Positions 25,082-44,591 of a stretch of 64,000 bases of DNA are shown piece by piece. The stretch comes from Terasakiella sp. SH-1 (GTDB lineage: Bacteria > Pseudomonadota > Alphaproteobacteria > Rhodospirillales > Terasakiellaceae). Location: positions 776,501 through 840,500 of the forward strand of contig NZ_CP038255.1 of the NCBI RefSeq assembly GCF_004564135.1. Reading direction: 5' to 3'. The translations under genes and the position numbers were made by a program. How positions within the stretch are numbered: position 1 is the first letter of the stretch; every line of letters starts with the position of its first letter. The notes under the pieces were generated by a model. It did not search any database and was not told the origin of the DNA. It was given only the letters and a program-made list of their open reading frames with translations.

Positions 25082-25681
25082 ATGGAAATCGACACCGCAC
25101 AGAAAGAATGGGACGTACCACTGACGGTCAATCCGGTGAAGATGATCAAGAAGCCCCGTTCCCCGAAAGCACGGGATCGTCGCCTTACGGTGGATGAATG
25201 GTCAAAACTGATGGAGGCTGCACAACAATCCTATCTAACGTGCCTTGCCGATGTCGTAGAATTTGCCGCAGAAACCGCCATGCGCCGTTCTGAACTGGTT
25301 CGTATTTCACCCGATAACATTGACCTTGAACGCTGCTTGTTGCACATCCCCATCACTAAAAATGGACATCCAAGAAGCATCCCTTTGTCATCACGCGCAA
25401 CCGTCTTAGCGAGAAAGTATAATAACTGCGACAAACCGACCCTGTTCCCATGCACGTACCACCAACTTGGCAGATGGTTCCGTGCCGCTTGTAAAGACGC
25501 TGGTATCACAGACTATCATTTTCACGATGTACGCCATGAAGCGGTATCACGTTTGACGGAGAAAGGACTGTCTCCGATTGAAGTATCATTGATTAGCGGA
25601 CACCGTGACTTACGGATATTGATGAACTATTCCCACATGCGGGTGGAAGAAGTAGGGCGAAAGTTAAAAGTTCGCCAGTAG
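25082..25681 (+). pseudogene. Tyrosine recombinase Int1, C-terminal half
   Basis: 199 residues covering the catalytic domain. R1 is in TAMRRSELVRIS, K in PITKNGHPRSIPL, the HxxR box in FHDVRHEAVSRL, H3 in LISGHRDLRI and the Tyr in MNYSHM. The N-terminal arm and core-binding domains are absent, and an in-frame TAA lies 12 bases upstream. The start reads MEIDTAQKEWDVPLTVNP, which continues exactly from the end (RHDLCLISSA) of the N-terminal half at 43849-44247. The two pieces make one integrase of about 330 residues. Cut by the large inversion; probably inactive. Confidence 0.85.
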
Positions 25682-25739
25682 CGAACTTTTTTCTCAATTT
25701 GACGAAAAAAGTATTTCATCTTGCGATTACACCTGCTAT

Positions 25740-26192
25740 AGTCATCTTGTTTAGTGAGAATATTGGCACCCTTGGTGTTGATGTCGCATAACTCGAAGCC
25801 TTTGGCTTGCGGGAACTTCGGTTCCTACTCTCCGCTGCGCAGGCGACGAAATGGACAACGACTTCCGCTGCTCCGTATCGTCCCACTCACCCAGCGTTAA
25901 TCCGATGCCGTTGCGAACGGCATCGGTAGAAGGTTTAGGGGTTCTGCTCTCGTTTGGACTACGTTGCGTTTTTTGCGACGCTAAAGCACTCCTGCTTTAG
26001 TGAAACGTGACATAGGAGTTTATTATTATGTCCTCCCCACTAAACACCAAACGAGAGGCGTTGCTCGCACGCCTGTATCAAGGCATTAAGGATGTTATCC
26101 GCATCCTCTTGGTCAATCCGCGTGTATGGAATGCAGCAATCAACTTTGTGCGCTTCATCTCCACACTATTCGATGAGTGACAACCCCTAAAC
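25740..26192 (+). ncRNA. Candidate retron non-coding RNA region (msr-msd)
   Basis: Upstream of the retron proteins and dense in hairpins: AAGCC-TTT-GGCTT (about 25796), GGAAC-TTCG-GTTCC (25812), a perfect CCGATGCCGTT-GCG-AACGGCATCGG (25902-25926), and CTAAAGCA-CTCC-TGCTTTAG (25981-26000). Two long inverted repeats enclose the later part: GTTTAGGGGTT (25933-25943) with AACCCCTAAAC (26182-26192), and CTCTCGTTTGG (25947-25957) with CCAAACGAGAG (26047-26057). The outer pair could be the a1/a2 pair that retron RNAs need; exact ends and the priming guanosine are not determined. The inner part overlaps the small gene at 26028. A TATAGT at 25737 may be a -10 element. Confidence 0.5.
26028..26180 (+). 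CDS. Small 50-residue protein of the retron locus
   Basis: Begins with an ideal ribosome site (AGGAG at 26014-26018, 9 bases before the ATG) and ends at TGA 26178-26180. The peptide has a basic N-terminus (MSSPLNTKREALLARLYQG) and an amphipathic/hydrophobic rest (DVIRILLVNPRVWNAAINFV). It lies between the hairpin region and the XRE gene, and its 3' end abuts the AACCCCTAAAC arm, so the gene is nested in a possible stem. I do not recognise a family. It may be a toxin, effector or regulatory peptide of the retron, or part of the RNA fortuitously open; the ribosome site favours translation. Confidence 0.55.
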   Translation: MSSPLNTKREALLARLYQGIKDVIRILLVNPRVWNAAINFVRFISTLFDE

Positions 26193-26212
26193 TAACTAAA
26201 GGAATAACAGTT

Positions 26213-26527
26213 ATGTTAAATGATGCACTCAGATTAATTCGCGTTTATCACAACCAAACGCAAGCACAAGTATCAGAAGGTTTAGGGTTATCGAAATCAT
26301 ATATTTCTGAGATCGAGAAGTCTCGGAAGAAAGTCAGCATGGAGACGCTTCAAAAGTATGCTGATTACTTTGGGGTACCAGCATCATCTCTCATGCTCTT
26401 TGCTGAAAATTTGGAAAACCCATCGGCATCAACGAAAGTGAAAAATGCCGTCGCTGGTAAAGTTGTAAAAATGTTGGACTGGCTTGCAACCATTTCGGAT
26501 GCAGACCCAGATAAGGTTAGAGGCTGA
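26213..26527 (+). CDS. XRE-family helix-turn-helix protein of the retron
   Basis: 104 residues from ATG 26213, preceded by AAGGA; the frame is open to 26177. The N-terminal HTH_3 domain is clear (QAQVSEGLGLSKSYISEIEKSRKKVSMETLQKYADYFGVPASSL, read in two parts 22-45 and 46-68 of the longer frame). A C-terminal tail (NAVAGKVVKMLDWLATI) may mediate protein contacts. It stops 4 bases before the RT start. Some retron classes carry an XRE/HTH protein as the accessory partner; it may repress the operon, act with the RT-msDNA complex, or both. Confidence 0.8.
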   Translation: MLNDALRLIRVYHNQTQAQVSEGLGLSKSYISEIEKSRKKVSMETLQKYADYFGVPASSLMLFAENLENPSASTKVKNAVAGKVVKMLDWLATISDADPDKVRG

Positions 26528-26531
26528 GCCA

Positions 26532-27458
26532 TTGAACCAATACCCGTTGCATAGATCGTCGTTGTATAGAATGCGCTCCCCACATGCGCTGGCAAAACTG
26601 TTGTATGTGTCGCGGGAGCAATTGGAATATTTAGCAAACCTTGATGACAACAAGCGTTTTCGCATTTTCACTACGAAAAAGGGTCGTACAGTTCAAGAAC
26701 CTATCAAACCGTTACAACGGCTTCACAAACGGTTAAAGAAACTGCTCACAAGAATTGAGACACCTCAATATCTGCAATCTGCCAAAAAAGACCGTTCGTA
26801 CGTTACTAATGCTCAAGAGCATTTGGGCGTTCACAGCACGTTGAAAACAGATGTGAAAAAGTTCTACCCGTCAGTGAAACGCAGTGTTGTTTATGGGTTC
26901 TTCGCTCATGGTTTGGAGTGTAGCAAAGACATTGCTGCACTTCTGGCAAAACTGACTACAGTAAACGGACATTTAGCAACAGGAAGCAGCGTTAGCCCAA
27001 TACTGTCCTATTTCGCACATCGCCCTATGTTTGAAGAAATTCATGCTCTTGTAGAAACACGAGAAGCGATTATGACACTATATGTCGATGACATCTCCGT
27101 ATCAGGTGATCATGTAAGCCAAAACCTTTTGAGCAAAATCCGCGCAATCATATCGCGCCATGGGCTGCGCTCTCACAAATCGCACTACTTCCCACCAAAG
27201 GCGAATAAAACAATCACTGGCGTTATCATCGCCGATGGCGAGATGCGATTACCCAACAAGCGTCACCTCAAAATCAAGAAGGCATTTGATGCCGTAAATG
27301 CCGCTGATATGTCTGACGAGAAACTGGACCTATATAAAGCACTGATTAGTCGAGTGTACGAAGCATCCCAAATCGAAGACAAGTGGGAACCTCGAGCGGT
27401 CAATCTTGTAAGCGCACAAAGCAGATTGAAAGAAGAATTAGACGCACGAAACCCTTAA
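26532..27458 (+). CDS. Retron-type reverse transcriptase
   Basis: 308 residues from TTG 26532, chosen because AGAGG lies 9 bases upstream, it follows the XRE stop directly, and it restores a retron-like N-terminus (YPLHRSSLYRMRSPHALAKLL); an ATG at 26571 would lose it. Motifs: TDVKKFYPSV (RT motif A region, ~106-115), the retron-specific NAxxH as NAQEH (93-97), LATGSSVSPILSYF (motif 4, ~148-161), catalytic YVDD (184-187), and ITGVII, matching the VTG of region Y. The small size and lack of maturase or integrase domains separate it from group II intron RTs. It would reverse-transcribe the upstream RNA into msDNA, typically as part of an anti-phage system. Its stop overlaps the convergent gene by 3 bases. 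Confidence 0.87.
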   Translation: MNQYPLHRSSLYRMRSPHALAKLLYVSREQLEYLANLDDNKRFRIFTTKKGRTVQEPIKPLQRLHKRLKKLLTRIETPQYLQSAKKDRSYVTNAQEHLGVHSTLKTDVKKFYPSVKRSVVYGFFAHGLECSKDIAALLAKLTTVNGHLATGSSVSPILSYFAHRPMFEEIHALVETREAIMTLYVDDISVSGDHVSQNLLSKIRAIISRHGLRSHKSHYFPPKANKTITGVIIADGEMRLPNKRHLKIKKAFDAVNAADMSDEKLDLYKALISRVYEASQIEDKWEPRAVNLVSAQSRLKEELDARNP

Positions 27459-27727
27459 AATGGATAGGACCAGACGTACACGGTGCAGCCACCGAACCCA
27501 TCAATTTCGGTGCGGATGCTATCACGGTCCAGCAATGTCCCGATGCCATCTGTGATAACTGATTTACGTCCTTTCAGATACCATTGACCATCCAATTGGG
27601 CGATGTCGTTTTTGTCCGTGATGGTCACACATTCTTTCAGCATATAACCTGTGTGAAGGGCTTTCAGAACGTCATTGTGATGTTGTGACGGGTCTATCGT
27701 TACCCGTGCGGCTTGGTTACAGAACAT
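27455..27727 (-). CDS. Hypothetical 90-residue cargo protein of element A
   Basis: ATG 27727 is preceded by GGAG at about 7 bases. The sequence is a compact beta-rich pattern (ARVTIDPSQHHNDVLKALHT; VTITDKNDIAQLDGQWYLKG; SVITDGIGTLLDRDSIRTEI) with no signal or membrane segment. It is divergent from the 27837 operon and convergent with the RT gene. Family not recognised. Confidence 0.55.
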   Translation of the reverse strand: MFCNQAARVTIDPSQHHNDVLKALHTGYMLKECVTITDKNDIAQLDGQWYLKGRKSVITDGIGTLLDRDSIRTEIDGFGGCTVYVWSYPF

Positions 27728-27836
27728 ATGTATTCTCCGTGCATATTATTGTGATTCTCCGTCTTAATAGAACGGTCTTACGTTCCGTATTTAGCGATAA
27801 ATAATTGACGTTAGAAACGACCAATGGAGAACGCAT
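27728..27836. promoter_or_regulatory. Divergent promoter/operator region
   Basis: 109 bp between two divergent genes whose starts share the same leader pattern (GGAGAA, six to eight bases, CATATG). It contains a palindrome GAACG-GTCTTA-CGTTC (27770-27785) and a direct repeat ATTCTCCGT at 27732 and 27754. These could be operators for the element's XRE protein; that link is a guess. Confidence 0.4.
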
Positions 27837-28124
27837 ATGACCTGCATTTCTAAGACCGTATTCACGGAACTACGCCGCTTGAATATCCTCAAATCGAGTG
27901 AAGAACTCAGTATCATGATGGCACGGACATCCTCTTATGCAAGGTCAGTCTGGTGCCGTAACGCCACGGTAACAACGGAGGCTCTATTCCATCTCTATAT
28001 CGATTTGGGCAACCTTGTGATGGAAACGGCAGACCAACCCGATACAGCAACCGCACTGGCTGATTTACAGACCATCATCTGGCAGGAACTTTGTGACCGC
28101 GCCCATAAGAAACTGGTGGCATGA
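27837..28124 (+). CDS. Hypothetical 95-residue cargo protein (DUF6626-like pattern)
   Basis: Start ATG 27837 has GGAG at 7 bases. Pattern: TELRRLNILKSSEELSIMMA, then RTSSYARSVWCRN and ATALADLQTIIWQELCDRAH. The helical N-terminus with a Ser/Tyr-Ala turn resembles small alphaproteobacterial proteins annotated as DUF6626; recognition is weak. Its stop overlaps the next start (ATGA), so it heads a three-gene operon. Confidence 0.55.
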   Translation: MTCISKTVFTELRRLNILKSSEELSIMMARTSSYARSVWCRNATVTTEALFHLYIDLGNLVMETADQPDTATALADLQTIIWQELCDRAHKKLVA

Positions 28125-28558
28125 TCATGCGCATTAATGAAGTGACCAGCCATATCCAACACCTGCCGACACCCACGGATAAACACGTCTATATCGTTCC
28201 GGTACGCTGTTTAGGCACCTGCACCATCAAATCCAGCACAGCACCCAAGAAAGCCCATGTGGTCGTTGATAATCAAGTTATCGGCAATGAAACCAGCGAC
28301 ATTACATTTGAAGATGCAGGTGGTGGTGAAATCATCGCAATGGCAGAGTGTTTCGGTAACATCATCGTTAATGCCGAAAATCACGAGGAATTAGAAAATC
28401 TCGTTAAAGACTTCACCCCGAACCTTCACACACCGATTGGTGACTTCACGCTCAAGAAAGGGCGTGTCAAAATCGTCGGTAATGTGGTGCGGGTGGACTT
28501 CCAACAGCAATCAATCATGGTCAAAGTGGACCGCACGGGAGAGATACATGCGCATTGA
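28121..28558 (+). CDS. Hypothetical cargo protein of element A
   Basis: 145 residues; ATG 28121 overlaps the previous stop, and an ATG at 28127 is an equally possible start. Soluble, beta-rich (KHVYIVPVRCLGTCTIKS; IIAMAECFGNIIVNAENHEE; VGNVVRVDFQQQSIMVKVD). It has no recognised motif. The last 11 bases overlap the next gene. Likely co-translated with its neighbours. Confidence 0.55.
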   Translation: MIMRINEVTSHIQHLPTPTDKHVYIVPVRCLGTCTIKSSTAPKKAHVVVDNQVIGNETSDITFEDAGGGEIIAMAECFGNIIVNAENHEELENLVKDFTPNLHTPIGDFTLKKGRVKIVGNVVRVDFQQQSIMVKVDRTGEIHAH

Positions 28559-28904
28559 TGACATATATGTACCGGAAGACGAACCATCGGCTTTTGCTTT
28601 CACTGTTACTTTTGAGAACCCATGTAATGCCACTGCCGTCAATATCTTCGTACCGGGAGCATCCAGTCAGGTTAAATCGGTTAATGGCAAGATTACCGTG
28701 CTGATTGCTGCATTGTCTGAAACCACAGAAGAACTGCAAAGCATGATCAGAAATGCCGTGCTGTCATGTAATGGCATTGACTACGTAGGTGCTGAATTAC
28801 GTCCCACACTTTCCGGTGGATTGATCGAAGTCCCACCGGGGTTTCATGGATGCCGTTACCATGCGCTGCATCAGGTCTATCCTGATTTCTTCTGTATGTC
28901 ATGA
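28548..28904 (+). CDS. Hypothetical cargo protein of element A
   Basis: 118 residues from ATG 28548 (GGGAG upstream); the frame is open further back but only in the shadow of the preceding gene. Begins MRIDDIYVPEDEPSAFAFTV and contains TEELQSMIRNAVLSCNGIDY. Soluble and acidic, family unknown. Last gene of the three-gene cargo operon. Confidence 0.5.
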   Translation: MRIDDIYVPEDEPSAFAFTVTFENPCNATAVNIFVPGASSQVKSVNGKITVLIAALSETTEELQSMIRNAVLSCNGIDYVGAELRPTLSGGLIEVPPGFHGCRYHALHQVYPDFFCMS

Positions 28905-29682
28905 AGGCACCTTTTGGGGAAATCTCGTCATAGCGCATGGGGCGTTCTTTTTTGAACCTTGTCGCCTCTTTCGCTGACGCTGCAAGAGTCGATAACATCG
29001 CCCAATCCATCCACAAACTGACGTTTGTGTCTGTTTTTGGTCGAGTTAGTTTATCTCTGATAGATGGTTCAGATTATTCATTTCAAGGCGGTAAGCCCGT
29101 TTCTTCACTTGCAATAGATTGAAGTGGTCTTTTTATTCCCCCTGTCCCTGAAAATCAGTTCAAGAACAAAGGGGAGAAGTTTTGCAATGAGTATCGCAGT
29201 CTGTAATGTTGTTCGTTATCAGTTACCTGAAACACTGGCGGTCGCCCGTTGACCAGCATATATCCGAACAGTCTATCGACGGTTATCATATCGTAGATAT
29301 GAAGCATCCCATATAGCCACACTACCGACCACATGAGATTGGCAAGTCCATGAACATCCGACACGGGTCTTGCCTCTTTTTGGCGTTCTTTATTTTTACT
29401 CGCAACAACATTGATACCTAAATGTCCATCGCCACTGATTGGTGCGTTTTGGGATACGATATCGCAATCTTCGAGCCAACTGGAAGGTGCAGCCGATAAG
29501 AGGTCGGTCTTTGTCCCGATGTCCTCCCATATTCAATAGAACCTTCTTGGCATGCGTTGATTTTCTCATACGGGTATTCAAAAAAGCAATAAACTTTTCA
29601 CCCAAGTAAAAGGAATATCATCGCATACACGTTATTTATACAACGGTGAGTGAAACCACGCACAAAAGCCTCAAAAACACAA
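28905..29682. other. Poorly coding stretch of element A before ndk
   Basis: About 780 bases with only weak frames. On the minus strand a GTG-started 69-codon frame at 29155-29364 has a GAGG site and is listed separately; another at 29396-29605 has a TTG start and no ribosome site. Frames at 28747-29016 (-) and 28937-29122 (+) overlap each other and are not convincing. Probably degraded cargo. Confidence 0.4.
29155..29364 (-). CDS. Possible small protein of element A
   Basis: 69 residues from a GTG with AGAGG about 8-10 bases upstream. The sequence (DVHGLANLMWSVVWLYGMLH, then DRLFGYMLVNGRPPVFQVTD) is hydrophobic at the start and could be a membrane-associated peptide or a gene fragment. No family recognised. 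Confidence 0.3.
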   Translation of the reverse strand: MSDVHGLANLMWSVVWLYGMLHIYDMITVDRLFGYMLVNGRPPVFQVTDNEQHYRLRYSLQNFSPLFLN

Positions 29683-29714
29683 AAAGACCAGATAGGGCAA
29701 CCTATCTGGTCTTT
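29683..29714. terminator. Hairpin terminator downstream of ndk
   Basis: AAAGACCAGATAGG (29683-29696), loop GCAA, CCTATCTGGTCTTT (29701-29714): perfect 14-bp stem with A/T-rich ends. The same hairpin with small changes occurs at 44592-44628 beyond the ndk remnant, part of the duplicated ndk end. Confidence 0.85.
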
Positions 29715-29740
29715 GTGCAAACTTGTGCAATTCTTGTGCA
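29713..29740. promoter_or_regulatory. Putative Int1 arm-binding sites
   Basis: Three TTGTGCA repeats at 29713, 29723 and 29734, about one helical turn apart. The reverse complement TGCACA(A/G) occurs twice with 11-bp spacing at 44264-44281, directly upstream of the Int1 N-terminal fragment. Repeats near both ends fit arm-type sites of element A. Confidence 0.5.
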
Positions 29741-29835
29741 GTGATTGACGATTTCCTGAACCGTCTTATACTGTTGGATGAAACATCAACAACAGAAACC
29801 GCACAGGCACCTACAGTTAAAAAACCGCAGAAACC

Positions 29836-30258
29836 TTAGCCCACAATTTCACATGCGCTAAAGAAATATGCAATCTCTTCACGCGCAGTTTCAGGAGCGT
29901 CAGAACCGTGTACTGAGTTCTCTTGAACGTCAACGGCGAAATCTTTACGGATTGTGCCTTCTTCAGCGTTCGCCGGGTTTGTTGCACCCATGATCTCACG
30001 GTTTGCGAGGATAGCGTTTTCGCCTTCCAGAACCTGAACAACAACCGGCTCAGACATCATGTATTCAACCAGTTCGTTGAAGAAAGAACGCTCTTTATGT
30101 ACAGCGTAGAAGCCTTCAGCTTGTGCACGAGTCAGGTGGATGCGTTTAGAAGCAACAACACGCAGACCTTTTTCTTCAAAGCGTGCGATGATTTGACCAG
30201 TCAAGTTACGGCGAGTTGCGTCCGGCTTGATGATGGACAATGTACGTTCGATAGCCAT
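29836..30258 (-). CDS. ndk: Nucleoside diphosphate kinase
   Basis: 140 residues, full length. Contains [18 protein letters not shown], the [24 protein letters not shown] nucleotide site and the active-site phospho-His in [12 protein letters not shown]. It transfers phosphate between NTPs and NDPs through a His intermediate. The 3' end is duplicated at 44391-44483; in the inferred ancestral order this intact copy lies at the left end of element A, whose insertion replaced the gene's 3' end with its own. Ribosome site GAGGGAG lies upstream (about 30262-30270). Confidence 0.95.
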
Positions 30259-30423
30259 GAGGGAGACCCCTTTACCAAAAATAATTCTCTATTAAGCCAC
30301 ACGACCCAATGCCTGTGACAAAGTGGGCGCCTTATACAGGGTCAAAACACATTTTGCAACTGCACAAATCATGAAATTCAACTTTCATAGTGAATTGCCC
30401 AAAATTTATGCTATTTAAACCGA

Positions 30424-32301
30424 ATGTTACATATTAATGACCTCACATACCGCATTGGCGGACGTACCCTTTTTGATCAGGCAACCGTTGTGGTACCTGC
30501 GGGCCATAAAGTTGGCCTGGTAGGTAAAAACGGGACAGGCAAGTCCACCCTGTTTAAACTTATTCTGGATGAGCTATCGCCTGATGATGGCGGGCTGACC
30601 ATTCAAAAACGTGCGCGTGTGGGTCGAGTCGCTCAGGAAGCCCCCACAGGCAGCGACAGTTTGCTTGAAACCGTGCTTAAGGCCGATACGGAACGCGAAA
30701 GCCTGCTGGCAGAGGCTGAAACCAGTGAAGACCCAAACCGCATTGGCGAAATCCATGCGCGTCTCGGTGATATTGATGCCCACAGTGCGCCCGCACGTGC
30801 AGCTGCTATTCTGCAAGGTCTTGGCTTTGATCATGAAGCACAACAACGCCCCTGTAGTGATTTTTCAGGCGGGTGGCAAATGCGCGTGGCACTGGCTGCG
30901 GCGCTGTTTGCCAAACCAGACCTGTTATTATTGGATGAGCCGACCAACCATTTGGATTTGGAAGCGGTTATGTGGCTGGAGGAATACCTCAAACGCTATC
31001 AAGGCACCATTCTGGTCATTAGCCACGAACGCACTCTGCTTAATAATGTGGTTGATGAAATCATCCATCTGGAACATTGCAAGCTGAACCGTTACGGCGG
31101 CAATTACGATACATTTGAAAAGACCCGGCGTGAAAAACTTGCCCTGCAAGCCAAGGCTCAATCCAAGCAACAGGCGCAACGCAAACACCTGCAAAGCTTT
31201 GTTGATCGTTTCCGGGCCAAGGCCACCAAGGCCAAGCAGGCCCAAAGCCGCCTGAAAATGCTGGAACGTATGGAACCGATTGCTGCGGTCATGGAAGAAA
31301 AGACCTATGCCTTTAATTTCCCTGACCCGGAACCGCTTTCATCTCCACTGATTGCCATGGAAGATACGGCTGTGGGTTATGAGGAAGACAAGCCGATCCT
31401 CAAAAAGCTTTCCCTGCGTATTGATATGGATGATCGCATTGCCTTACTCGGGGCAAACGGGAATGGTAAATCGACACTGGTGAAATTACTCGCCAATCGC
31501 TTAGAGCCCATGGATGGAACCTTACGTAAATCCTCCAAACTGAAAATCGGCTATTTCGCCCAGCATCAAACTGACGAGCTGAATGTACAAAAAACGCCTT
31601 ATGACCATATGGCGGCGCTCATGCCAGATGCTATTGAAGCCAAAGTGCGCGCCCAACTAGGGCGTTTTGGTTTTGAAGGCGACAAGGCCGATAGCAAGAT
31701 TGAAAAACTATCCGGCGGGGAAAAGGCACGCCTGTTATTCGCGCTTATGAGTTATGAAGCCCCGCACATTATGTTTTTGGACGAACCGACCAACCATTTG
31801 GATGTGGATAGCCGTGAAGCTCTGGTTCAAGCCATCAATGCCTATGACGGGGCGGTCGTGATTGTCTCACACGATCCGCACTTGCTGGAACTGACCTGTG
31901 ATCGTTTATGGATTGTGGAGAAAGGTGACTGCAAAGCCTTTGAAGGTGATCTCAATGAATATAAACGCCAGTTGATTGAAAGCCGAAAGACGGAAAAGAA
32001 AGCAGCCAATACATCAAACACCACCAGTGTTAACCAGAAAAAAGCCAACCGTCAGGACCGTGCTGCTCAACGCGCCGCACAGGCCCCCTTGCGCAAAAAA
32101 GCCAAAGAGGCGGAAAAACGTGTGGAAAAACTGACCGGTGAAAAGGAAAAGCTGGAAAACAAACTGGCGGACCCGAAAATCTACGAAGGGCCAAGCGAGA
32201 AGCTTCAAGAACTTCAAATCCAGCTAGGTGAAATTAACAACCAGCTGGAAGAAGCCGAACTAGAATGGCTGGAAGCGGCTGAGGCTTTGGAAGAAGCTTA
32301 A
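30424..32301 (+). CDS. ABC-F family ATPase
   Basis: 625 residues with two ABC domains and no membrane segments. First domain: Walker A GKNGTGKST, signature FSGGWQMR, Walker B LLLDEPTNHLD. Second: GANGNGKST, LSGGEKARL, MFLDEPTNHLD. The linker (about residues 230-300) is basic, and a C-terminal coiled coil (KKAKEAEKRVEKLTGEKEKL) is like Uup/YheS proteins. ABC-F proteins act on ribosomes or, for Uup, on DNA-related processes. Its stop overlaps the convergent glycosyltransferase gene by 4 bases. Confidence 0.88.
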   Translation: MLHINDLTYRIGGRTLFDQATVVVPAGHKVGLVGKNGTGKSTLFKLILDELSPDDGGLTIQKRARVGRVAQEAPTGSDSLLETVLKADTERESLLAEAETSEDPNRIGEIHARLGDIDAHSAPARAAAILQGLGFDHEAQQRPCSDFSGGWQMRVALAAALFAKPDLLLLDEPTNHLDLEAVMWLEEYLKRYQGTILVISHERTLLNNVVDEIIHLEHCKLNRYGGNYDTFEKTRREKLALQAKAQSKQQAQRKHLQSFVDRFRAKATKAKQAQSRLKMLERMEPIAAVMEEKTYAFNFPDPEPLSSPLIAMEDTAVGYEEDKPILKKLSLRIDMDDRIALLGANGNGKSTLVKLLANRLEPMDGTLRKSSKLKIGYFAQHQTDELNVQKTPYDHMAALMPDAIEAKVRAQLGRFGFEGDKADSKIEKLSGGEKARLLFALMSYEAPHIMFLDEPTNHLDVDSREALVQAINAYDGAVVIVSHDPHLLELTCDRLWIVEKGDCKAFEGDLNEYKRQLIESRKTEKKAANTSNTTSVNQKKANRQDRAAQRAAQAPLRKKAKEAEKRVEKLTGEKEKLENKLADPKIYEGPSEKLQELQIQLGEINNQLEEAELEWLEAAEALEEA

Positions 32302-34697: not shown

Positions 34698-34712
34698 TCC
34701 CCGTTGACCCCA

Positions 34713-35507
34713 ATGTTTACGGATGCGATCGGCACTTCCCATGAAACGGCACCGGATGCACGTATCCTGTCGCTTGTGCCTAGCATAACCGAATTGCTTT
34801 TTGACATGGGGCTTGGACCACAGCTTGTCGGGCGCACAGCTTTTTGTGTTCACCCTCAAGACCGTGTGAAACAAATCCCCAGCATTGGGGGGACCAAACA
34901 AGTCAATATGGATAAGGTGAAGGCCCTGAATGCCACCCACCTGATTGTCAATATTGATGAAAACCCCAAAGAACTGGTCGAGGAACTGGCAAAGTTCATC
35001 CCTCATATTGTCGTGACACATCCCAACACCCCTGCAGATAATATTGACCTATTCAGTCTGCTGGGAAATATCTTTGAGCAAAAAGGCCAAGCAGCCCGCT
35101 TAATCAGCGAGTTTCAAGCTGCCCTCACCCATGCGCAACTCAGTGCCATGGATCTACCAGAAAGAAAAGTTCTGTATTTTATCTGGAAAGACCCGTGGAT
35201 GAGTGTCTCATCAGACACCTATATTTCCCATTCACTCAAAATGGCGAATATGATCACCCAGCCGCCACAAAATGAAAACCGCTATCCCGAAGTTGATCTG
35301 AGCGAGGCGCTACTGAATGAGGTTGATGCGATCCTCTTTTCATCCGAGCCTTTCCTGTTTAAGGAAGACCACCTTGATCAATTTGCCGGAAATTTCAATA
35401 TTGCACGCGAAAAGCTGCATATCATTGATGGGGAAATGACATCCTGGTATGGCAGTCGTGCAATTAACGGCATGCGCTATCTGGCTGACTTTGCAAAAAC
35501 CCTCTAA
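34713..35507 (+). CDS. BtuF/FepB-like cobalamin- or metal-chelate-binding protein
   Basis: 264 residues from ATG 34713; a TTG at 34704 is a possible alternative. The periplasmic-binding fold of PF01497 is clear: RILSLVPSITELLFDMGLGP, LVGRTAFCVHP, IPSIGGTKQVNMDKVKALNA, and a C-terminal GEMTSWYGSRAINGM. In contrast to BtuF there is no signal peptide or lipobox, so it may be cytoplasmic or use an unusual export. 15 bases after the STAS gene. Functions of unlinked cytosolic members are not well established. Confidence 0.75.
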   Translation: MFTDAIGTSHETAPDARILSLVPSITELLFDMGLGPQLVGRTAFCVHPQDRVKQIPSIGGTKQVNMDKVKALNATHLIVNIDENPKELVEELAKFIPHIVVTHPNTPADNIDLFSLLGNIFEQKGQAARLISEFQAALTHAQLSAMDLPERKVLYFIWKDPWMSVSSDTYISHSLKMANMITQPPQNENRYPEVDLSEALLNEVDAILFSSEPFLFKEDHLDQFAGNFNIAREKLHIIDGEMTSWYGSRAINGMRYLADFAKTL

Positions 35508-35552
35508 TCTCTTCATATGTATTTTGAATACCTAATACTATTCAGGAACGAG

Positions 35553-35674
35553 ATGATGAAAATGGTATTTTTTATTAGATTTTCTCTCTGCCTTTTATGC
35601 TTCTTTTGCTTCATTGGCAAAGCACATAGCGGATTTCAGCATTCTATAAAACGAGCCCAGAACGGAGATGGACC
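35553..35674 (+). pseudogene. Signal-peptide-bearing gene start interrupted by the IS element
   Basis: ATG 35553 begins a good signal peptide (MMKMVFFIRFSLCLLCFFCF, cut after KAHS), followed by about 18 residues, then the IS terminal repeat. Joining across the IS at GGACC/GGTCC continues 16 codons on the far side (PITPASRKMVCLAWGM) to a TAG, so even the restored frame is short. Probably an inactivated small secreted protein. Confidence 0.45.
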
Positions 35675-36914
35675 TGTACGGAAAAAGTGGAGTGCGTCTC
35701 ACTCACTTAGACAGCCCGTTTTTCAAATTTAATCGGACTGAGGCCATTCAGATATGAATGGCGTCTCTTTGCGTTATAAAATCCATTTATATATTTGAAC
35801 AACTCCTTTTTAGCATGGTCGCGTGTCTGGAAGGCGATTTTCCAGACCATTTCCGCTTTCAAGGTCTTAAAGAATGTCTCCACAGCGGCATTATCGTAGC
35901 AGTTCCCCTTGCCGGACATTGACTGTTCGAACTTGTACTTTGCCAGCAGTTTACGGAATTTATTTGAACAATATTGTGAACCGCGATCTGAATGAAAAAT
36001 CACACCAGCAGGTGGCTTGCGAAGGGCAATTGCCTTGTTTAGGGCATCCATCACCAAATCCTTTTTCATACGTCGACTTGCAGACCAACCAATCACGCGA
36101 CGGGAGTAAAGGTCGATGACAACCGCCAAGTAAAGCCAGCCTTCACCCGTCCACAGGTAGGTAATATCACCCGCCCATTTTTGATCCGGTGCTGTCGCGG
36201 CAAAGTCACCATCCAACAGATTAGGCGAAATATTATGTTTGTGATCGCTGTCAGTGGTGCGTTTGAATTTCTGACTTCGCACGATCCGCAAATTGTTTTG
36301 CTTCATAATACGGGCAACGCGGTGTTCACCGACACAAATTCCCTCTTCCTGCAATTCATCTTTCATACGGCCTCGCCCATAGGATTGGTAATTGGCATAA
36401 TGGATGGACTTGATATGGGCCAGCAGTACCATATCTTCTCGTTGGCGTTTGCTGGTAGGACGATTACGCCAAGCAAAATAGCCACTCTCAGAAACGCTCA
36501 TCGCACGACACAGACCAGCAATGCTATGGTTCTCACGTTGCAGGTGGACAAACTGGAACTTCACGGCTTTTGGCTCGCAAAGTAACGAGCCGCCTTTTTT
36601 AGAATGTGCCGTTCCGTCCGCTTCGCGAGCCCTCTCCTCCCGCAGTTCTCGTACTTCACGGCGAAGACGGGCTAACTCCTTTTGAGCATCATCGTTAGGG
36701 GATGAACCTTCTCGTTCACGATATTGGGAAACCCAACGGTTCAAACTGCCGACACTGACACCAAAATCGGCGGCGACCACTTTACGCGGCTGATTACTGC
36801 TTAAAGCAACACGGGCGGCTTCTTCTCTAAATTCTGGGGTACGTTTGCGACTCATCATATTCTCCTGTAGTCAGCATAGTTAACTCAGGAGACACACTCC
36901 ACTTTTTCCGTACA
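35675..36914 (-). mobile_element. IS3-family insertion sequence
   Basis: Terminal inverted repeats: TGTACGGAAAAAGTGGAGTG at 35675 with its partner ending at 36914 (match 25 of 26 bases over 35675-35700 and 36889-36914). Outside, GGACC and GGTCC extend the symmetry, so the true end could lie 5 bases further; no clean target duplication is seen. About 1.24 kb with one transposase gene on the minus strand. Confidence 0.85.
35707..36855 (-). CDS. IS3-family transposase (OrfA and OrfB parts in one frame)
   Basis: About 382 residues; ATG 36855 has AGGAG six bases upstream. N-terminal HTH (PRKVVAADFGVSVGSLNRWV) followed by a leucine-rich coil, then the OrfB integrase core with DDE residues: D in AGDITYLWTG, D in FHSDRGSQYC, E in AAVETFFKTL. 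The junction is odd. The sequence after REVRELREE reads AREADGTAHSKKGGSLL, while the next frame gives TERHILKKAARYFASQKP and a stop, the normal OrfA end, with a slippery A6G site (about 36593-36600). A small indel seems to have moved the OrfA start into the OrfB frame. Activity uncertain. Confidence 0.85.
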   Translation of the reverse strand: MSRKRTPEFREEAARVALSSNQPRKVVAADFGVSVGSLNRWVSQYREREGSSPNDDAQKELARLRREVRELREERAREADGTAHSKKGGSLLCEPKAVKFQFVHLQRENHSIAGLCRAMSVSESGYFAWRNRPTSKRQREDMVLLAHIKSIHYANYQSYGRGRMKDELQEEGICVGEHRVARIMKQNNLRIVRSQKFKRTTDSDHKHNISPNLLDGDFAATAPDQKWAGDITYLWTGEGWLYLAVVIDLYSRRVIGWSASRRMKKDLVMDALNKAIALRKPPAGVIFHSDRGSQYCSNKFRKLLAKYKFEQSMSGKGNCYDNAAVETFFKTLKAEMVWKIAFQTRDHAKKELFKYINGFYNAKRRHSYLNGLSPIKFEKRAV

Positions 36915-37058
36915 GGTCCAATAACACCCGCCAGCAGAAAAATGGTCTGTCTCGCGTGGGGAATGTAGCTGTCAGAGCTTGTCGTTCCAGTTTCTCAGGA
37001 GTGCGAGACTTTTCTCATCCTACAACAAAAAGGAAATATTAATATTCACTATATGTTC

Positions 37059-37187
37059 TTGACTTTATTCCTGCGTTAAGTTACATGTAGCCTCAGTCAA
37101 CAGGAGAAGTGTGACCGGATGGTTGCCTTCTCCTGTTTTCGTTTCAAAGCCGCGTTTTCCGCATATTCGGAAGACGCGGTTTTTTTT
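37059..37187 (+). ncRNA. Candidate leader RNA or small RNA with two tandem hairpins
   Basis: A TTGACT (37059-37064) precedes two hairpins: AACAGGAGAAG (37099-37109) with CTTCTCCTGTT (37127-37137), then CCGCGTTTTCCG (37150-37161) with CGGAAGACGCGG (37168-37179) and an eight-T run. The last is a strong intrinsic terminator only 23 bases before the M23 peptidase start. No gene lies upstream on this strand between the IS and here. Either a small RNA or an attenuator for the peptidase gene. The -10 box is weak. Confidence 0.4.
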
Positions 37188-37210
37188 GTGTGCACAACAA
37201 GGAACCTACA

Positions 37211-38515
37211 ATGTTTAAATTCTTAGATGATGTTGCCAGCGGGTTTGGCAACTTGTTCTCCGTCGATAATGGCTATTCACCCGATACACCTATTTCATCA
37301 CCCGATGCCATCAAGACAGGTGGAGCTCTGTCCGATCTCGGCTTCTTTGGCAATAATGGCCAAGGAGAGTTTGATCTCAACAAAAGCGTGAAGGCATTTC
37401 AGGAAGACAATGGGCTGAAGGTCGATGGCGTGATCAATCCAGGTGGGCCAACGGAAAATACAATTTCTAATGCGCTTTCGCAGAAAAGTGTGTCGGCAAT
37501 TGATCCGCTGGAAGCTACAACAAATGATCTGCCGTCTAATGTTACTGTCAGTAAACCTGAAAGTTCTAAGCCGGATCAACAATCTTGGATTGCTTCAGCT
37601 TCTTTTGGTGAACCTACAAAGTCCAAGACACCAAACTTGCCAAAAATTGATCCCATGACAGGCCTGACCGATCCTTTGGCCTCTGCTCCAAAAGGCAAAA
37701 TGCCAACAGCGAAGCAATGGGAAGAAGCCGCTAAAATACAAAAGCAAAAAGCAACGACAGCTATTGTCCCTGAAGGCAATACGGTCCAGCAGCGTATACA
37801 GTCCATGATGGCTGATAAACGCTACAACGATAAATCCGATACTCGCCTGCGTGATCATATCGTTAAACAATTCAAAAAAGCCTATCCGGGTGAAGTACAA
37901 TATGATGAGACGGGTAAGATGGTTCAGGCAGAAGCCGTGATCCAACCTGAAGAAGTTGAACCGTTTGATCCAGATGGTGAACTTATTGGCGGTTCCGGCA
38001 CAGATATTCTGCAGGAAGATCGTCAGACTGAAATTGCTCAAGCCTCAACTGTTGAAACAAACTCTGCTGAGGAACAGGAACCCCTAAAATTCAAGGGGCC
38101 GATTGATAAAGGTACTATTAGAGGAGATGATCCATATGGCTCCGGCCATTATGGAGCCCCCCGCGGTCGTCGTACCCACAATGGGATTGATATCAAAGCA
38201 TCGCCCGGTCAGCCCGTAACGAGTCCCGTTTCAGGTACATTTGTTCGTCGTGCTAATCCTTATAAGGATGACAACAACTATAGTGGTGTTTTCATTAAGA
38301 CTGATGACGGACGTGAGGTGAAGATTTTCTATGTTGATCCAAACTCAGGCCTGCAAAATGGAAGCCGGGTAAAAGCTGGGGAAACTGTCATTGGCGTAAC
38401 ACAGGATTTACGCAAGAAATATCCAGCAAAAAGTGGAAAGTCAGCTATCACCCCTCACATCCATATCCAGGTTCAAAAGGATGGGAAATATATTGATCCG
38501 ACGGAGGGCTTTTAG
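37211..38515 (+). CDS. M23 metallopeptidase with peptidoglycan-binding domain
   Basis: 434 residues from ATG 37211 (AAGGA upstream; a GTG at 37190 is less likely). N-terminal PG_binding_1 domain (LNKSVKAFQEDNGLKVDGVI), a long Pro/Lys/Thr/Gln-rich linker, and a C-terminal LytM/M23 domain with zinc ligands in THNGIDIKASPG and the HxH of ITPHIHIQVQ. Predicted cell-wall endopeptidase. It lacks a standard signal peptide, so export is unclear; it could derive from a phage or secretion-linked lysin. Confidence 0.75.
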   Translation: MFKFLDDVASGFGNLFSVDNGYSPDTPISSPDAIKTGGALSDLGFFGNNGQGEFDLNKSVKAFQEDNGLKVDGVINPGGPTENTISNALSQKSVSAIDPLEATTNDLPSNVTVSKPESSKPDQQSWIASASFGEPTKSKTPNLPKIDPMTGLTDPLASAPKGKMPTAKQWEEAAKIQKQKATTAIVPEGNTVQQRIQSMMADKRYNDKSDTRLRDHIVKQFKKAYPGEVQYDETGKMVQAEAVIQPEEVEPFDPDGELIGGSGTDILQEDRQTEIAQASTVETNSAEEQEPLKFKGPIDKGTIRGDDPYGSGHYGAPRGRRTHNGIDIKASPGQPVTSPVSGTFVRRANPYKDDNNYSGVFIKTDDGREVKIFYVDPNSGLQNGSRVKAGETVIGVTQDLRKKYPAKSGKSAITPHIHIQVQKDGKYIDPTEGF

Positions 38516-38518
38516 AGA

Positions 38519-39289
38519 TTAACTACAGGCGACACCCCATCTCCAAATCAAAAATGAGGTGTCGCCACTTTTCCATAGATCGTATTGAAAACGTTCAGAG
38601 GCTTCTTTTGAAAACCCTAGGCTTTTAATTATATCAATCTCATCTTGTGATGCAGCCTGCGTCAGTTTGCTTGCACACATGTCAGTCGAAACAGTTTTGA
38701 AAGGGCCAGAGTTATCCACTGTGAAGCATGTGCTATTCGCTGCCCAATACAAATCTCCTGTTTTGGTAAGGCTCAATTTTTCATGCCATTGTCCCATCTC
38801 CCATGATGGTGAGGACAACCATTCAGTTTTTTGGTTTTCAAGATTAATGATGGCGAGAGACTTTTTGTCTCCAATAATTATCTTTGGATCAGCTATTTCA
38901 AGAACGCCTTTATCGGTCAAAATAAGACCGCCGGTTTCAGTCAACCCGACTGTTGCGACACTTGTGTCACGGCATCCCAATTGGTCTCCAGGATACCTGA
39001 AGACCACTTTATGAGCTTTTAACTCACCACCATTTAGCTTGCCCATCATTTGAACAGTTGCTGGGCCATATCCAGAGTCATCAGGATTGAAATCTAGAAC
39101 AGGTGATTTCCCATCTGCCCCTTTGAGAAAATTCACATCAAACAACAAGCAAGGCTTCCCATTATCCGGGCAAACCGTTTCGGCTTTTAGAGTTTCACTC
39201 ATCCCATCTGAGGGGAGCAGAAAAGCTGCAAGAAGTAGGGTCCCGATAAACATGGAACGTTTCCAATAGTTCTTAACAAACGTGGACAC
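38519..39289 (-). CDS. Hypothetical exported protein
   Basis: 256 residues. A hydrophobic signal (SMFIGTLLLAAFLLPSDGMS) follows a basic N-terminus. The mature part has several Cys (CPDNGKPC, DQLGCRDTS, ANSTCFTV, TDMCASKL) that could form disulfides and ends WRWGVACS. Convergent with the M23 gene, stops 4 bases apart. No family recognised; co-location with the peptidase could suggest a role at the envelope. Confidence 0.55.
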   Translation of the reverse strand: MSTFVKNYWKRSMFIGTLLLAAFLLPSDGMSETLKAETVCPDNGKPCLLFDVNFLKGADGKSPVLDFNPDDSGYGPATVQMMGKLNGGELKAHKVVFRYPGDQLGCRDTSVATVGLTETGGLILTDKGVLEIADPKIIIGDKKSLAIINLENQKTEWLSSPSWEMGQWHEKLSLTKTGDLYWAANSTCFTVDNSGPFKTVSTDMCASKLTQAASQDEIDIIKSLGFSKEASERFQYDLWKSGDTSFLIWRWGVACS

Positions 39290-39512
39290 TTTGCCACTCC
39301 TTTTACGTGCTGTTTGATATCTTTTATATCTTAATGGAAGGTCTAGAGGAATATTTTGTTTATTTGCACTTTCCTCTGGACTTCCGTTGCCAACAGAGCG
39401 GTACTGTTGGTGGCTTTAGGGCCGGTGCTTGAAGGGAAATATCGATCTCTCAGGCATTTGGGCAGTGGGAGCTTTTACATAACGTGAAAGCCGAAACTGA
39501 CGGAGGCCTGAT

Positions 39513-39746
39513 ATGGCTGCTCAAGCAAATAAATCCACCAAAACCAAGAAAGATACTGTCCTTGCTCTGCTCAAACGCAATCAAGGAGCCAGCGTTGCGG
39601 AAATTCAGAAATCTACCGGATGGCAACCTCATACCATTCGCAGCTTTATTTCTTTTACCGTGGGCAAGAAACTCCAGCTTGAGGTCATAAGCTCGCTGAC
39701 CAAAAACAACGTGCGCCGCTATCGCATTCAAAAGCAGGAGGGCTAA
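39513..39746 (+). CDS. DUF3489 protein of the serine-recombinase cluster
   Basis: 77 residues; GGAGG lies upstream of ATG 39513. Contains the DUF3489 pattern TVLALLKRNQGASVAEIQKSTGWQPHTIR-type (read as two blocks), a winged-helix-like fold. In alphaproteobacteria this gene usually precedes DUF2924 and a large serine recombinase, as here. Presumably an accessory DNA-binding factor for recombination. Confidence 0.85.
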   Translation: MAAQANKSTKTKKDTVLALLKRNQGASVAEIQKSTGWQPHTIRSFISFTVGKKLQLEVISSLTKNNVRRYRIQKQEG

Positions 39747-39749
39747 ATC

Positions 39750-40199
39750 ATGGCCTCTTCTCTTGATCATATCGCAAACCTGGACGCGCAGAACCTGCGT
39801 GTCCTCTGGCAGCAGGAGTTCGACTGTGAACCGGCTCCGCGCCTTGGCAAAGACCTGATGATACGGTTGCTGTCTTTCAAAGTGCAGGAGAAACAATCTA
39901 AGGGGCTGTCAAAACCGGCCCTTCGCAAACTGAATAGCTTTAAAAAGCAATTTGCCGAGAAAGGTAAGATTACACCGACCGACAGCATTCGCATCAAATC
40001 TGGGACCAAGCTGATCCGTGAATGGAATGGCAAAACGCATACAGTTTTGAAAACAGAACAGGGATTTGAATATGAAGGGGAGTGTTTTTCGTCACTTTCC
40101 AATATCGCCAAACAGATCACAGGCAGCCACTGGTCCGGCCCCCGTTTCTTCGGTTTGAACAAGAAACCGACACCTCCGGGAGTATCAAACCATGCCTAA
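39750..40199 (+). CDS. DUF2924 protein of the serine-recombinase cluster
   Basis: 149 residues. Typical DUF2924 features: an N-terminal helical LDAQNLRVLWQQEFDCEPAP with GKDLMIRLLSFKVQEK, and a C-terminal GTKLIREWNGKTHTVLKTEQ plus SSLSNIAKQITGSHWSGPRF. It starts 3 bases after DUF3489 and overlaps the recombinase start by 8 bases. Likely a DNA-binding partner of the recombinase. Confidence 0.88.
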   Translation: MASSLDHIANLDAQNLRVLWQQEFDCEPAPRLGKDLMIRLLSFKVQEKQSKGLSKPALRKLNSFKKQFAEKGKITPTDSIRIKSGTKLIREWNGKTHTVLKTEQGFEYEGECFSSLSNIAKQITGSHWSGPRFFGLNKKPTPPGVSNHA

Positions 40200-41802
40200 G
40201 AAAACTGTCAGATGCGCCATCTATACCCGCAAATCCACCGAGGAAGGATTGGATCAAACTTTCAACACTCTTCATGCCCAACGAGAAGCTTGTGAATCCT
40301 ACATTCAAAGTCAGCGTCATGAAGGTTGGGTAACGTTGCCGGAGCTTTATGATGACGGAGGTTCCTCCGGCGACAATATGGATCGCCCGGCATTGAAAAA
40401 GCTACTCGCAGATATTGAAGCTGGGCTGATAGATACGGTGGTCGTTTATAAAATTGATCGTTTGACCCGCGCACTTGCGGATTTCGCCAAAATGGTAGAA
40501 ATATTCGATAATCCTGACCACCCGGTATCCTTTGTTTCTGTTACCCAGCAATTCAACACCACGACATCTATGGGCCGACTAACCTTAAATGTCCTTCTAT
40601 CATTTGCTCAGTTTGAACGCGAGGTTATCGGTGAACGGGTGCGAGACAAGATTGCTGCCTCCAAAAAGAAGGGCATGTGGATGGGCGGTCTGTTGCCCCT
40701 TGGCTATGATGTTGAAGACAAACTTCTCAAAATCAATAAGCCTGAAGCCAAAACTGTTCGAGATATCTTTCAAACATACCTCAAACTGAAATCGGTTCGT
40801 GAACTCAAAGAAAATTTGGATAAGCGCGGGATTGTTAGCAAGGTTCGAGTTTCAAAAGAAGGCAATACTTCCGGCGGCAACCCACTTGCCAGAGGCGCAC
40901 TTTACACCATTCTGCGAAACCCTACCTATATCGGCAAAATCCGGCACAAAGATAAGGTTTACGATGGGGGACATGAGCCGATAATCGATATGGAACTCTG
41001 GCAACAGGTTCAAAACCTGTTGGATGAAAACCAGGCGAGGCAGGAAGGCAAAACGGATTGTAAGAACGGAAGCCTTCTGGCGGGCTTGATTTACGATGCC
41101 GAAGGCAACCGCCTGACACCCAGCCATGCGGTGAAGAAAACGGCATCCGGCAAGAAACGATATCGCTACTACATTTCCCGACCATTGACGACAGGCACAG
41201 GAAAAGGCCTTCGTCTCCCAGCTACTGATGTTGAGCAGATTGTGATTGTCAATTTATGCGCTTATCTGAATGACCCCAAGAATATCGCCACCCCAGAAGA
41301 ACTTGAAGAATACACAGAGTTTGCAAAAACCTTGAAAGATCACAGTACCTTCAACCGGATCTTTCTTCTCAAACAACTTCTGGAATCCGTTATCGTTGAT
41401 ACTTCTCAAATCACCCTGAACATTAGAAAAGGTGACAATATTGTCCCGATGAAAGTCCCAGCTCAATTGAAGCGATGTGGTTTGGAGATGAAAATGGTTT
41501 TAGGCGATACAGAACGAAAACCAGCAAACGATCCGGCTTTAATCAGAGTTCTTACTCAGGCTCACGTCATTTTCGAAAAACTGACATCCACGGATCGCAT
41601 CAGCATCACCGAAATAGCCGAAGCAGAAAAAGTCACACCTTCCTACATCACACGCCTGTTGCGACTGACGTCACTCTCTCCGAGAATTCAGGAGGTCATT
41701 CTAACTGGAAAACAGCCACCTGAGATGACCGCAAATAAACTGATGAATTTGAAGGTGCTCCCAATTGAATGGTTAGAACAGGAATCTCTGCTTGGTATCT
41801 AA
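40192..41802 (+). CDS. Large serine recombinase
   Basis: 536 residues. N-terminal resolvase domain with catalytic Ser15 in YTRKSTEEG, GGSSGDNMDRPALKKLL and KIDRLTRALADF; then the recombinase domain (NPLARGALYTILRNPTYIG) and a basic C-terminal region with an added HTH-like stretch (ISITEIAEAEKVTPSYITRL). All catalytic residues appear present. Large serine recombinases integrate or excise mobile DNA. The substrate site here is not identified; the gene ends 235 bp from the element B attachment repeat. Confidence 0.9.
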   Translation: MPKKTVRCAIYTRKSTEEGLDQTFNTLHAQREACESYIQSQRHEGWVTLPELYDDGGSSGDNMDRPALKKLLADIEAGLIDTVVVYKIDRLTRALADFAKMVEIFDNPDHPVSFVSVTQQFNTTTSMGRLTLNVLLSFAQFEREVIGERVRDKIAASKKKGMWMGGLLPLGYDVEDKLLKINKPEAKTVRDIFQTYLKLKSVRELKENLDKRGIVSKVRVSKEGNTSGGNPLARGALYTILRNPTYIGKIRHKDKVYDGGHEPIIDMELWQQVQNLLDENQARQEGKTDCKNGSLLAGLIYDAEGNRLTPSHAVKKTASGKKRYRYYISRPLTTGTGKGLRLPATDVEQIVIVNLCAYLNDPKNIATPEELEEYTEFAKTLKDHSTFNRIFLLKQLLESVIVDTSQITLNIRKGDNIVPMKVPAQLKRCGLEMKMVLGDTERKPANDPALIRVLTQAHVIFEKLTSTDRISITEIAEAEKVTPSYITRLLRLTSLSPRIQEVILTGKQPPEMTANKLMNLKVLPIEWLEQESLLGI

Positions 41803-41823
41803 GAAAACGCCCATTCCATTCCC

Positions 41824-41851
41824 GCCCTTTCTCCTCAAAAAGGGCTTTTTT
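41824..41851 (+). terminator. Terminator of the recombinase cluster
   Basis: GCCCTTT (41824-41830), loop, AAAGGGC (41839-41845), then six T. Between here and the int2 start at 42154 no gene is seen; the stretch holds the element B attachment core and arm sites. Confidence 0.75.
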
Positions 41852-42037
41852 GTGCGTGAACCGTACCACCACTTTTCGCCACAGAGATAATTCGGATATC
41901 TGGCTCTGAATTCACTGTCTCAGGTCCGGCTTAAAGAGCTCATATGATGCGCCACCACCCACAACCCATTGACTTTAAAAGACGAATACAAAGAAAAAGC
42001 GAACCGGCTGGAAATCAGCGGTTCGCTTTAAAAATTC

Positions 42038-42055
42038 TGGCGGACAGTGAGGGAT
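42038..42055 (-). repeat. Attachment core of element B, inverted copy of tRNA-Ser 3' end
   Basis: TGGCGGACAGTGAGGGAT is the exact reverse complement of 22303-22320. Only the 18 bases match; flanks differ. In the reconstructed ancestral order it is the right end of element B, in direct orientation with the tRNA. Confidence 0.85.
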
Positions 42056-42117
42056 CAGATGACATCAATTCTACAACCCGCAAAACCCCTTGATTTCATA
42101 CACTTGAGCCATTAAAG

Positions 42118-42139
42118 GTAGGTGGTAACGGTAGGTGGT
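42118..42139. promoter_or_regulatory. Putative integrase arm-binding sites, element B right end
   Basis: GTAGGTGGT-AACG-GTAGGTGGT, period 13 bp, reverse complement of the doubled motif at 22419-22440. It lies 15 bases before the int2 start, so it may also overlap the int2 promoter and allow autoregulation. Confidence 0.7.
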
Positions 42140-42153
42140 TTCAAGGGAAAGTC

Positions 42154-43434
42154 ATGGCTCGATATATCGTCAAGCAGAAGCAAGGTTACTATGCAGCATT
42201 GGAAATACCCAAGCCACTGCACAATCACTTCGGAAAGAGGCGCTTCAAGGAAACCCTCAAGACACGGGACATCTCAGAAGCCCAGCGCAGAGCATTGCCC
42301 ATTATTGCCAAATGGAAGTGTGAGATCGAAGCTGCCCGCAACGAGAACCAAAACTCCTTAGAGCGCGACCATAAATTCTGGCGGGAGTCCTTGGGGATAG
42401 CTGAGACCAACAGTGGCTACACTGACGAACAAGGCGAAGACATCTACCCTTCAGAGTACGACATCATTCTTGATCACCTGCAGGGTCAGGCAGAGAAGCT
42501 GGATAAGCAAGAGGATGGTTCAGGTACAGATTTTTACCAACAGTCCACAGGGCAAAAAGCCGTCACATCTGACTATATCGAAGAGTGGAAGAAGGCTCTC
42601 ACCAATACTGAGAAGACCAAAGACATGAAGGTATCTTCTGTCAGAAGGTTTGCCGAGAAGTTCACTACCATTGACATGGTAACCAAGAAGGAAGTCAGAC
42701 GTTGGGTAGATAGACTTCAGCAGGAAGATGGCCTGTCCCTCAAGACCGTTAAGAGTATCCTGTCGGCCTGTCGTGATTACTGGAAGTATCTGACTGCAAT
42801 CGAAGTGGTCAGCGAAGACTATACACCTTTGAACAACCTGGGCCTTGCCAGCAAGGTGACAAAAGACAAAGCCAACGAACGCAAATCATTCACAGAAGAA
42901 GAAGTCTTAACCCTTCTGGGTAAAGCGAAAGAAAAAGGTGATACCTCCCTTGCTGATCTGATCACACTCGGCATGTGGACTGGAGCCCGTATTGAAGAAC
43001 TCTGTTCGCTGAAGGTGAATAAGGTGAAGGACAAATCATTTGAGATTGAAGATGCCAAGACCGCCTCTGGTTGGCGTGAAGTCCCGATCCATTCAAAACT
43101 AAAGCCGAACATCCAGCGCCTCGTTAAAGACTCGAAAGATGGCTATGTTCTCAGTGGTTTAAGCGAGAACAAGTATGGTGACCGGAGCAATGCTATAGGT
43201 AAACGCTTCGGACGTTTAAAGACAGAGTTAGGCTTTGACAGACGTCACGTATTCCACTCACTCCGTAAAACAGTGATCAGTAAATTCAAACACGCTGGGG
43301 TTAATGAAGACAAAGCTGCTGATATTGTCGGGCATGACATCCCCACCATGACGTATGGCCTGTACGCCGATGGTAGCCTGTTACAAGAAATGATCGATGC
43401 TATGGAAATGATCACCTACAGGGGATGGAACTGA
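42154..43434 (+). CDS. Tyrosine recombinase / integrase (Int2)
   Basis: 426 residues. N-terminal arm-binding (KQKQGYYAALEIPKPLHNHF), core-binding helical domain, and catalytic domain with R in GMWTGARIEELCSL, HxLR in FHSLRKTVISKF, H in DIVGHDIPTMT and nucleophile Tyr in YGLYADG. SD-like AAGGGAAA precedes ATG 42154. Complete and probably active. Beside the tRNA-Ser-derived repeat, so it is the likely integrase for that site. Confidence 0.9.
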   Translation: MARYIVKQKQGYYAALEIPKPLHNHFGKRRFKETLKTRDISEAQRRALPIIAKWKCEIEAARNENQNSLERDHKFWRESLGIAETNSGYTDEQGEDIYPSEYDIILDHLQGQAEKLDKQEDGSGTDFYQQSTGQKAVTSDYIEEWKKALTNTEKTKDMKVSSVRRFAEKFTTIDMVTKKEVRRWVDRLQQEDGLSLKTVKSILSACRDYWKYLTAIEVVSEDYTPLNNLGLASKVTKDKANERKSFTEEEVLTLLGKAKEKGDTSLADLITLGMWTGARIEELCSLKVNKVKDKSFEIEDAKTASGWREVPIHSKLKPNIQRLVKDSKDGYVLSGLSENKYGDRSNAIGKRFGRLKTELGFDRRHVFHSLRKTVISKFKHAGVNEDKAADIVGHDIPTMTYGLYADGSLLQEMIDAMEMITYRGWN

Positions 43435-43535
43435 CAACACAATAGCTTCAAGACCTATTCCAAGAGTCACCATGATGATCGTAGGGAAACTGCGGAGAAA
43501 CTGAAGCTCCTTGAAAAAATAACTGTCCTGATCAA

Positions 43536-43848
43536 TCAGTAATGGTCGTTAGGGTCCGGGTTCAATGCAGCATCCCATTCATTGATTGGCTTCTTGCGTC
43601 GTTTCGCACTGGCCTTCTCTATAGCATCCATCATAGGGCGTAAATGCTCCATCAACTTCGCGTCCTCCTCTGGGGTACGTTTCGGCGGTTCTGGTGCGTC
43701 AGCATGTTCTCGCCAGTTAGGGAAGCAAATATCCCAGACTTCCTCAGAGACCATCCCTTCACCTCGCCATGGGTGTTTAATGAAAGCAGCGGTTCCTTGT
43801 GACTTGTCTGCCTTGTCCCACCTATCTGCAATAAGTTTCAGGTCCGCT
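43536..43848 (-). pseudogene. Gene of element B truncated at the inversion breakpoint
   Basis: The annotated-length frame could begin at ATG 43754 (GAGGTG upstream), giving 72 residues (VSEEVWDICFPNWREHADAP, then acidic and Lys-rich). But the same frame is open and protein-like back to 43848 (DLKLIADRWDKADKSQGTAA, FIKHPWRGEG), so the gene likely lost its 5' end at the breakpoint. No partner is clear on the other side at 25081. Family unknown. Confidence 0.5.
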
Positions 43849-44281: not shown

Positions 44282-44390
44282 ACATGGTCGTGAACAGTTA
44301 AAAACGGTGGGGCATATCGTTGCCCAACAATGGCAGAAAACCTGATGGTACGCTGTGCTTCACAATCAAAGAAGATGGAAAATCGTCAAG

Positions 44391-44483: not shown

Positions 44484-44591
44484 TAAACTTGCGGTTTTTT
44501 AACTGTAGGTGCTTGTGTGGTTTCTGTTGTTGATATCATGTCGACAGTATGGACGGTGTTTTAAAAGCATCAATCACTGCACAAAAATTAC

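Follow-up and report, generated by a model that had tools for sequence, protein, structure and literature searches.

Known rearrangements and islands compared with the locus

Spontaneous inversions in bacteria resemble the locus described here in that a block is inverted with no dedicated recombinase site at its ends, but differ in their endpoints: about two bases are shared here, whereas a Salmonella survey describes confirmed inversions with longer inverted endpoint repeats, at a cut-off of 12 bp (PMC3411829). Islands at the 3' ends of tRNA genes are a second point of comparison. Island 1 of our locus has, like them, an 18-bp tRNA repeat and a tyrosine integrase beside one repeat, but its repeats are now inverted, having been direct only before the inversion, and its parts lie on each side of a joint. 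Some islands reportedly insert at the ends of protein-coding genes, dusA among them; island 2 is like these in targeting a conserved housekeeping gene and in having a duplicate of that gene's end, but its target is the 3' end of ndk. Finally, island 2 resembles a type VI retron in that both the RT_VI and HTH_VI models match, but no non-coding RNA was called here by Rfam at the gathering threshold.

The window (the whole 64,000-bp stretch analyzed, positions 776501–840500 of a 3.83 Mb genome in a single contig) was compared with five congeners (G001–G005) and with a wider search set of 297 genomes; gene names in it are based on Pfam matches. Its central feature is a block of 18,761 bp (25088–43848), delimited by congener gene order and by the exact abutment of two integrase halves. 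Relative to the congeners, the block lies opposite to its flanks at both ends, as seen at the ndk end in three of the five (G001, G002, and G005) and at the tRNA end from the flank in G001 and G005 and the gene order in G001. We put at about 0.95 the probability that this chromosomal block was inverted between two small islands, and the event is a well-resolved case of an ordinary, known kind of genome rearrangement.

An inversion of 18.8 kb, breaking up an integrase and mixing two islands, had been read from the raw sequence alone. The gene order in the congeners agrees with it, as does an intact integrase in G002, and at the integrase joint the agreement extends to the single base, which makes this an unusually complete case. 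The same order with two unrelated integrases was not seen in the informative congeners. The whole uninverted order was not found in any one genome; where congeners have both tRNA-Ser and ndk, the two lie on different contigs.

The two islands and their targets

The gene of tRNA-Ser (gct) occupies positions 22231–22320 on the plus strand, and its last 18 bases form one att repeat of island 1. The second repeat, now inverted, lies on the minus strand at positions 42038–42055, with 18 of 18 bp identical (22303–22320 versus 42055–42038; E = 7e-4 in the window). On its own this repeat is weak evidence; it gains its strength from what lies beyond the copy, the native tRNA-Ser flank of G001 and G005: what follows the tRNA gene in these congeners runs leftward from position 42055 of the window, 19.7 kb away and reversed. 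In all four congeners with the locus (G001, G002, G004, and G005), the match to the window ends at position 22320. The repeat had been predicted to mark a former element, and the native flank supports this.

Island 1 consists of a part outside the inverted block (22321–25087), with a 325-aa protein, an MrcB_N/HNH protein, and a gene remnant, and a part inside it (42056–43848), with an integrase and a gene remnant. Before the inversion, the island would have measured about 4.6 kb (2,767 + 1,793 bp, plus any loss). Its intact tyrosine integrase (42154–43434, plus strand, 426 aa; PF00589, DUF6538, and a SAM-like domain) has the expected domains in its family matches. An island of G001 at tRNA-Ser (tga) carries a homologue with 82% identity, which adjoins the att copy, and has its tRNA gene at the far end; island 1 would have had this layout before the inversion. 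No other intact island 1 with this cargo was found: the MrcB/HNH protein gave partial matches only, in 12 of the 297 genomes besides the window's own. For an integrase homologue with 39% identity in Rhodobacteraceae bacterium HTCC2083, there was no tRNA within the 17 kb fetched.

Gene order on the tRNA side supports the inversion in one of the four congeners. In G001, a serine recombinase gene after tRNA-Ser is opposite in orientation to a GST gene, whereas in the window both are on the plus strand; G002, G004, and G005 show no such recombinase gene there. Support on this side thus comprises gene order in one congener of four and the flank in two. Genes with DUF3489, DUF2924, and serine recombinase matches stand in a row at positions 39513–41802 of the window and adjoin tRNA-Ser in G001.

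At the other end of the block, the ndk gene (29836–30258, minus strand; PF00334) has a 3' end that is the target of island 2. A second ndk 3' tail (44391–44484, plus strand) is now inverted relative to ndk; the segment 44385–44487 is 95% identical to the ndk tail of G001, and the whole inverted repeat (243–256 bp) shows 79% identity over 256 columns. The ndk site of G001 is empty, with the genes found in the window from 46.6 kb onward directly after ndk. In G002 the site is occupied: after ndk come genes homologous to those of three island proteins (27455–27727, 27837–28124, and 28121–28558 in the window; 68–76% identity), the intact integrase gene, another ndk tail, and then purN/purM, names that we assume for the proteins of the formyl transferase and AIR synthase families encoded at positions 50123–51828 of the window. 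The empty site and the intact island confirm that the inverted repeat of the ndk end marks an element, as had been proposed. In G001, G002, and G005, ndk points at purN/purM; in the window, it points the opposite way.

The two remaining congeners do not inform the ndk joint: G003 has an aminopeptidase gene after ndk, and the contig of G004 starts inside the ABC-F gene. The arrangement in G003 (contig C5, 9776–13911), with the aminopeptidase gene directly after ndk, belongs to a neighbourhood rearranged differently in that species.

Before the inversion, island 2 would have measured about 5.3 kb (4,748 + 542 bp). It carries a type VI retron-like pair, an HTH protein and a reverse transcriptase (26177–27458, plus strand; HTH_VI, 2.7e-32; RT_VI, 2.5e-86), in place of which G002 has an unrelated frame of 274 aa. 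The ndk 3' end is thus an island target with exchangeable cargo, a modest side finding; no literature report of it as such a target was found among the matches listed. After the second ndk tail, the segment 44485–46587 contains a second copy of the inner end of island 2 (repeat arms 29785–29935 and 44384–44534, 83% identity) and an MCP-domain gene; this content is absent from the G001 ndk site and is probably the remnant of a tandem island.

The joints of the inverted block

The island-2 integrase is split between the two ends of the block. Its C-terminal part (25088–25681, plus strand) belongs to a frame, 25082–25681, that matches Phage_integrase (PF00589, 1.4e-24), and its N-terminal part (43849–44247, minus strand) gave no Pfam match of weight. 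Searched separately, the two halves match a single intact integrase of G002, at residues 114–246 and 247–439 with nothing between them (numbered along the G002 open frame taken), and abut exactly at nucleotides 18654–19232 and 19233–19631 of its contig C14. This confirms the original reading that the halves make up one ordinary integrase. Among 19 loci tried, 15 had a row for both halves, and in all 15 no residue was lost or gained at the cut; the other four (L095, L096, L106, and L108) had no row owing to the frame choice or the cut-off.

Because the halves abut without gain or loss, the joints can be placed at 25087/25088 and 43848/43849. The right joint is where it had been predicted; the left one had been set at 25081/25082, which is 6 bp off, and the hexanucleotide ATGGAA (25082–25087) is part of island 1.

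Identity to G002 is unequal along the integrase, 83% in the N-terminal half and only 69% in the C-terminal half, which may reflect unequal drift or a mosaic gene. Relatives with about 40% identity adjoin tRNA-Gly (ccc) at three of the four loci scanned (L095, L097, and L098, among L095–L098), so the ndk target seems special to the subgroup of the split integrase.

Beyond the signals first noticed, both joints carry a piece of one decayed gene of about 400 codons. The right piece (43536–43848, minus strand) encodes the C-terminal 103 residues and is 61–73% identical to the corresponding part of frames of 385–413 aa in three genomes of the order (G029, G039, and G037); with a weak fourth (G070), the gene is found in 5 of the 297 genomes, including the window's own. 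The left piece (24870–25087, plus strand) is decayed and matches residues about 60–138 of the protein, with a good match over the last 25 only. With one piece at each joint, the remnant of this gene holds the tRNA-side breakpoint. Its N-terminal part is decayed, and about 170 codons (residues about 139–309 in G039 numbering) are missing at the tRNA-side breakpoint; the loss came either with the inversion or before it, and the tRNA-side joint is thus partly reconstructed.

Judged from the homologues of the integrase and of the remnant, the two joints appear to have about two bases in common (AA). The longest inverted word shared within 300 bp of the joints is 9 bp long and lies away from them, and no insertion sequence, att site, or long repeat was found at either joint. 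The motif CGCA, which had been put forward as the homology at the joints, fails in this role: although its complement, TGCG, begins at the right joint (43849), CGCA itself occupies positions 25077–25080 and ends 7 bp before the left one. A site-specific invertible segment (phase switch) does not fit either, since neither inverted repeats nor sites for a recombinase were seen at the joints. An inversion driven by an insertion sequence was also rejected, as the IS copy at positions 35669–36920 lies inside the block and none lies at the joints.

Mechanism, alternatives, and consequences

The comparisons above establish the former order and the joint positions. At the start, island 1 lay in the 3' end of tRNA-Ser and island 2 in that of ndk, on either side of a chromosomal block. 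A single exchange then reversed the 18,761-bp block, with one breakpoint in the decayed island-1 gene and the other midway along the integrase gene of island 2. It left this integrase in two pieces and changed the att repeats of both islands from direct to inverted orientation. Because the joints have neither a long repeat nor an insertion sequence or att site, we infer that the exchange was illegitimate, of an end-joining-like type, at about two shared bases (AA). The longer endpoint repeats of confirmed inversions in the Salmonella survey (PMC3411829) speak somewhat against regarding a two-base exchange as typical. The inversion and an illegitimate mechanism, taken together, nevertheless form a quite probable reading, and the initial guess of an illegitimate or element-driven mechanism stands, though not through CGCA.

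Large serine recombinases require only a matching central dinucleotide, and a protein with Resolvase and Recombinase domains is encoded inside the block (40192–41802). A real inversion made by such a site-specific recombinase at pseudo-sites would account for joints that share about two bases and for an integrase that loses no base at its joint. However, neither joint showed a recombinase site, the homologue at tRNA-Ser in G001 is present without such an inversion, and about 170 codons are gone at the other joint; we consider this route unlikely, and less likely than illegitimate exchange.

That the block was merely reversed by the assembler is very improbable. The genome is a single contig, and nothing at the joints would mislead an assembler: the sequence there is unique, shared words within 300 bp do not exceed 9 bp, and no such word falls on a joint. 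Neither the 243–256-bp ndk repeat nor the 18-bp tRNA repeat lies at one. The weakness of the 18-bp repeat alone (E = 7e-4) is the one point for a reading without any inversion, in which two unrelated truncated integrases and chance repeats happen to coincide, and this is next to impossible given that the halves are exactly complementary in 15 of 15 scored relatives and that the congener gene order contradicts it.

The inversion has consequences for both islands. Both pairs of att repeats are inverted, so normal excision of either island is not expected, and the integrase gene of island 2 is no longer in one piece. The island-1 integrase, if active, is predicted from the repeat arrangement to flip the 19,717 bp that separate its sites rather than excise the island. 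That island 1 already works as an accidental switch, with the att repeats 22303–22320 and 42038–42055 facing each other and the ndk-containing 19.7 kb flipping back and forth, seems to us improbable. Exchange between two islands is a possible route to island fixation, in which excision of both is blocked and the intervening genes stay.

Another break in gene order lies inside the block. The periplasmic-binding-protein gene at positions 34704–35507 adjoins an M17 aminopeptidase gene in four of the five congeners; in the window's genome, the latter is 1.3 Mb away (contig C1, 2137077–2138579), and a partner joint of the break at 34704–36920 was not found at this 2.137 Mb locus. No clear target duplication was seen beside the block's IS copy or beside three other full-length copies. 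This copy, whose rve-family transposase (35707–36858) we take to be IS3-like, sits at the break after the binding-protein gene and may mark an older rearrangement.
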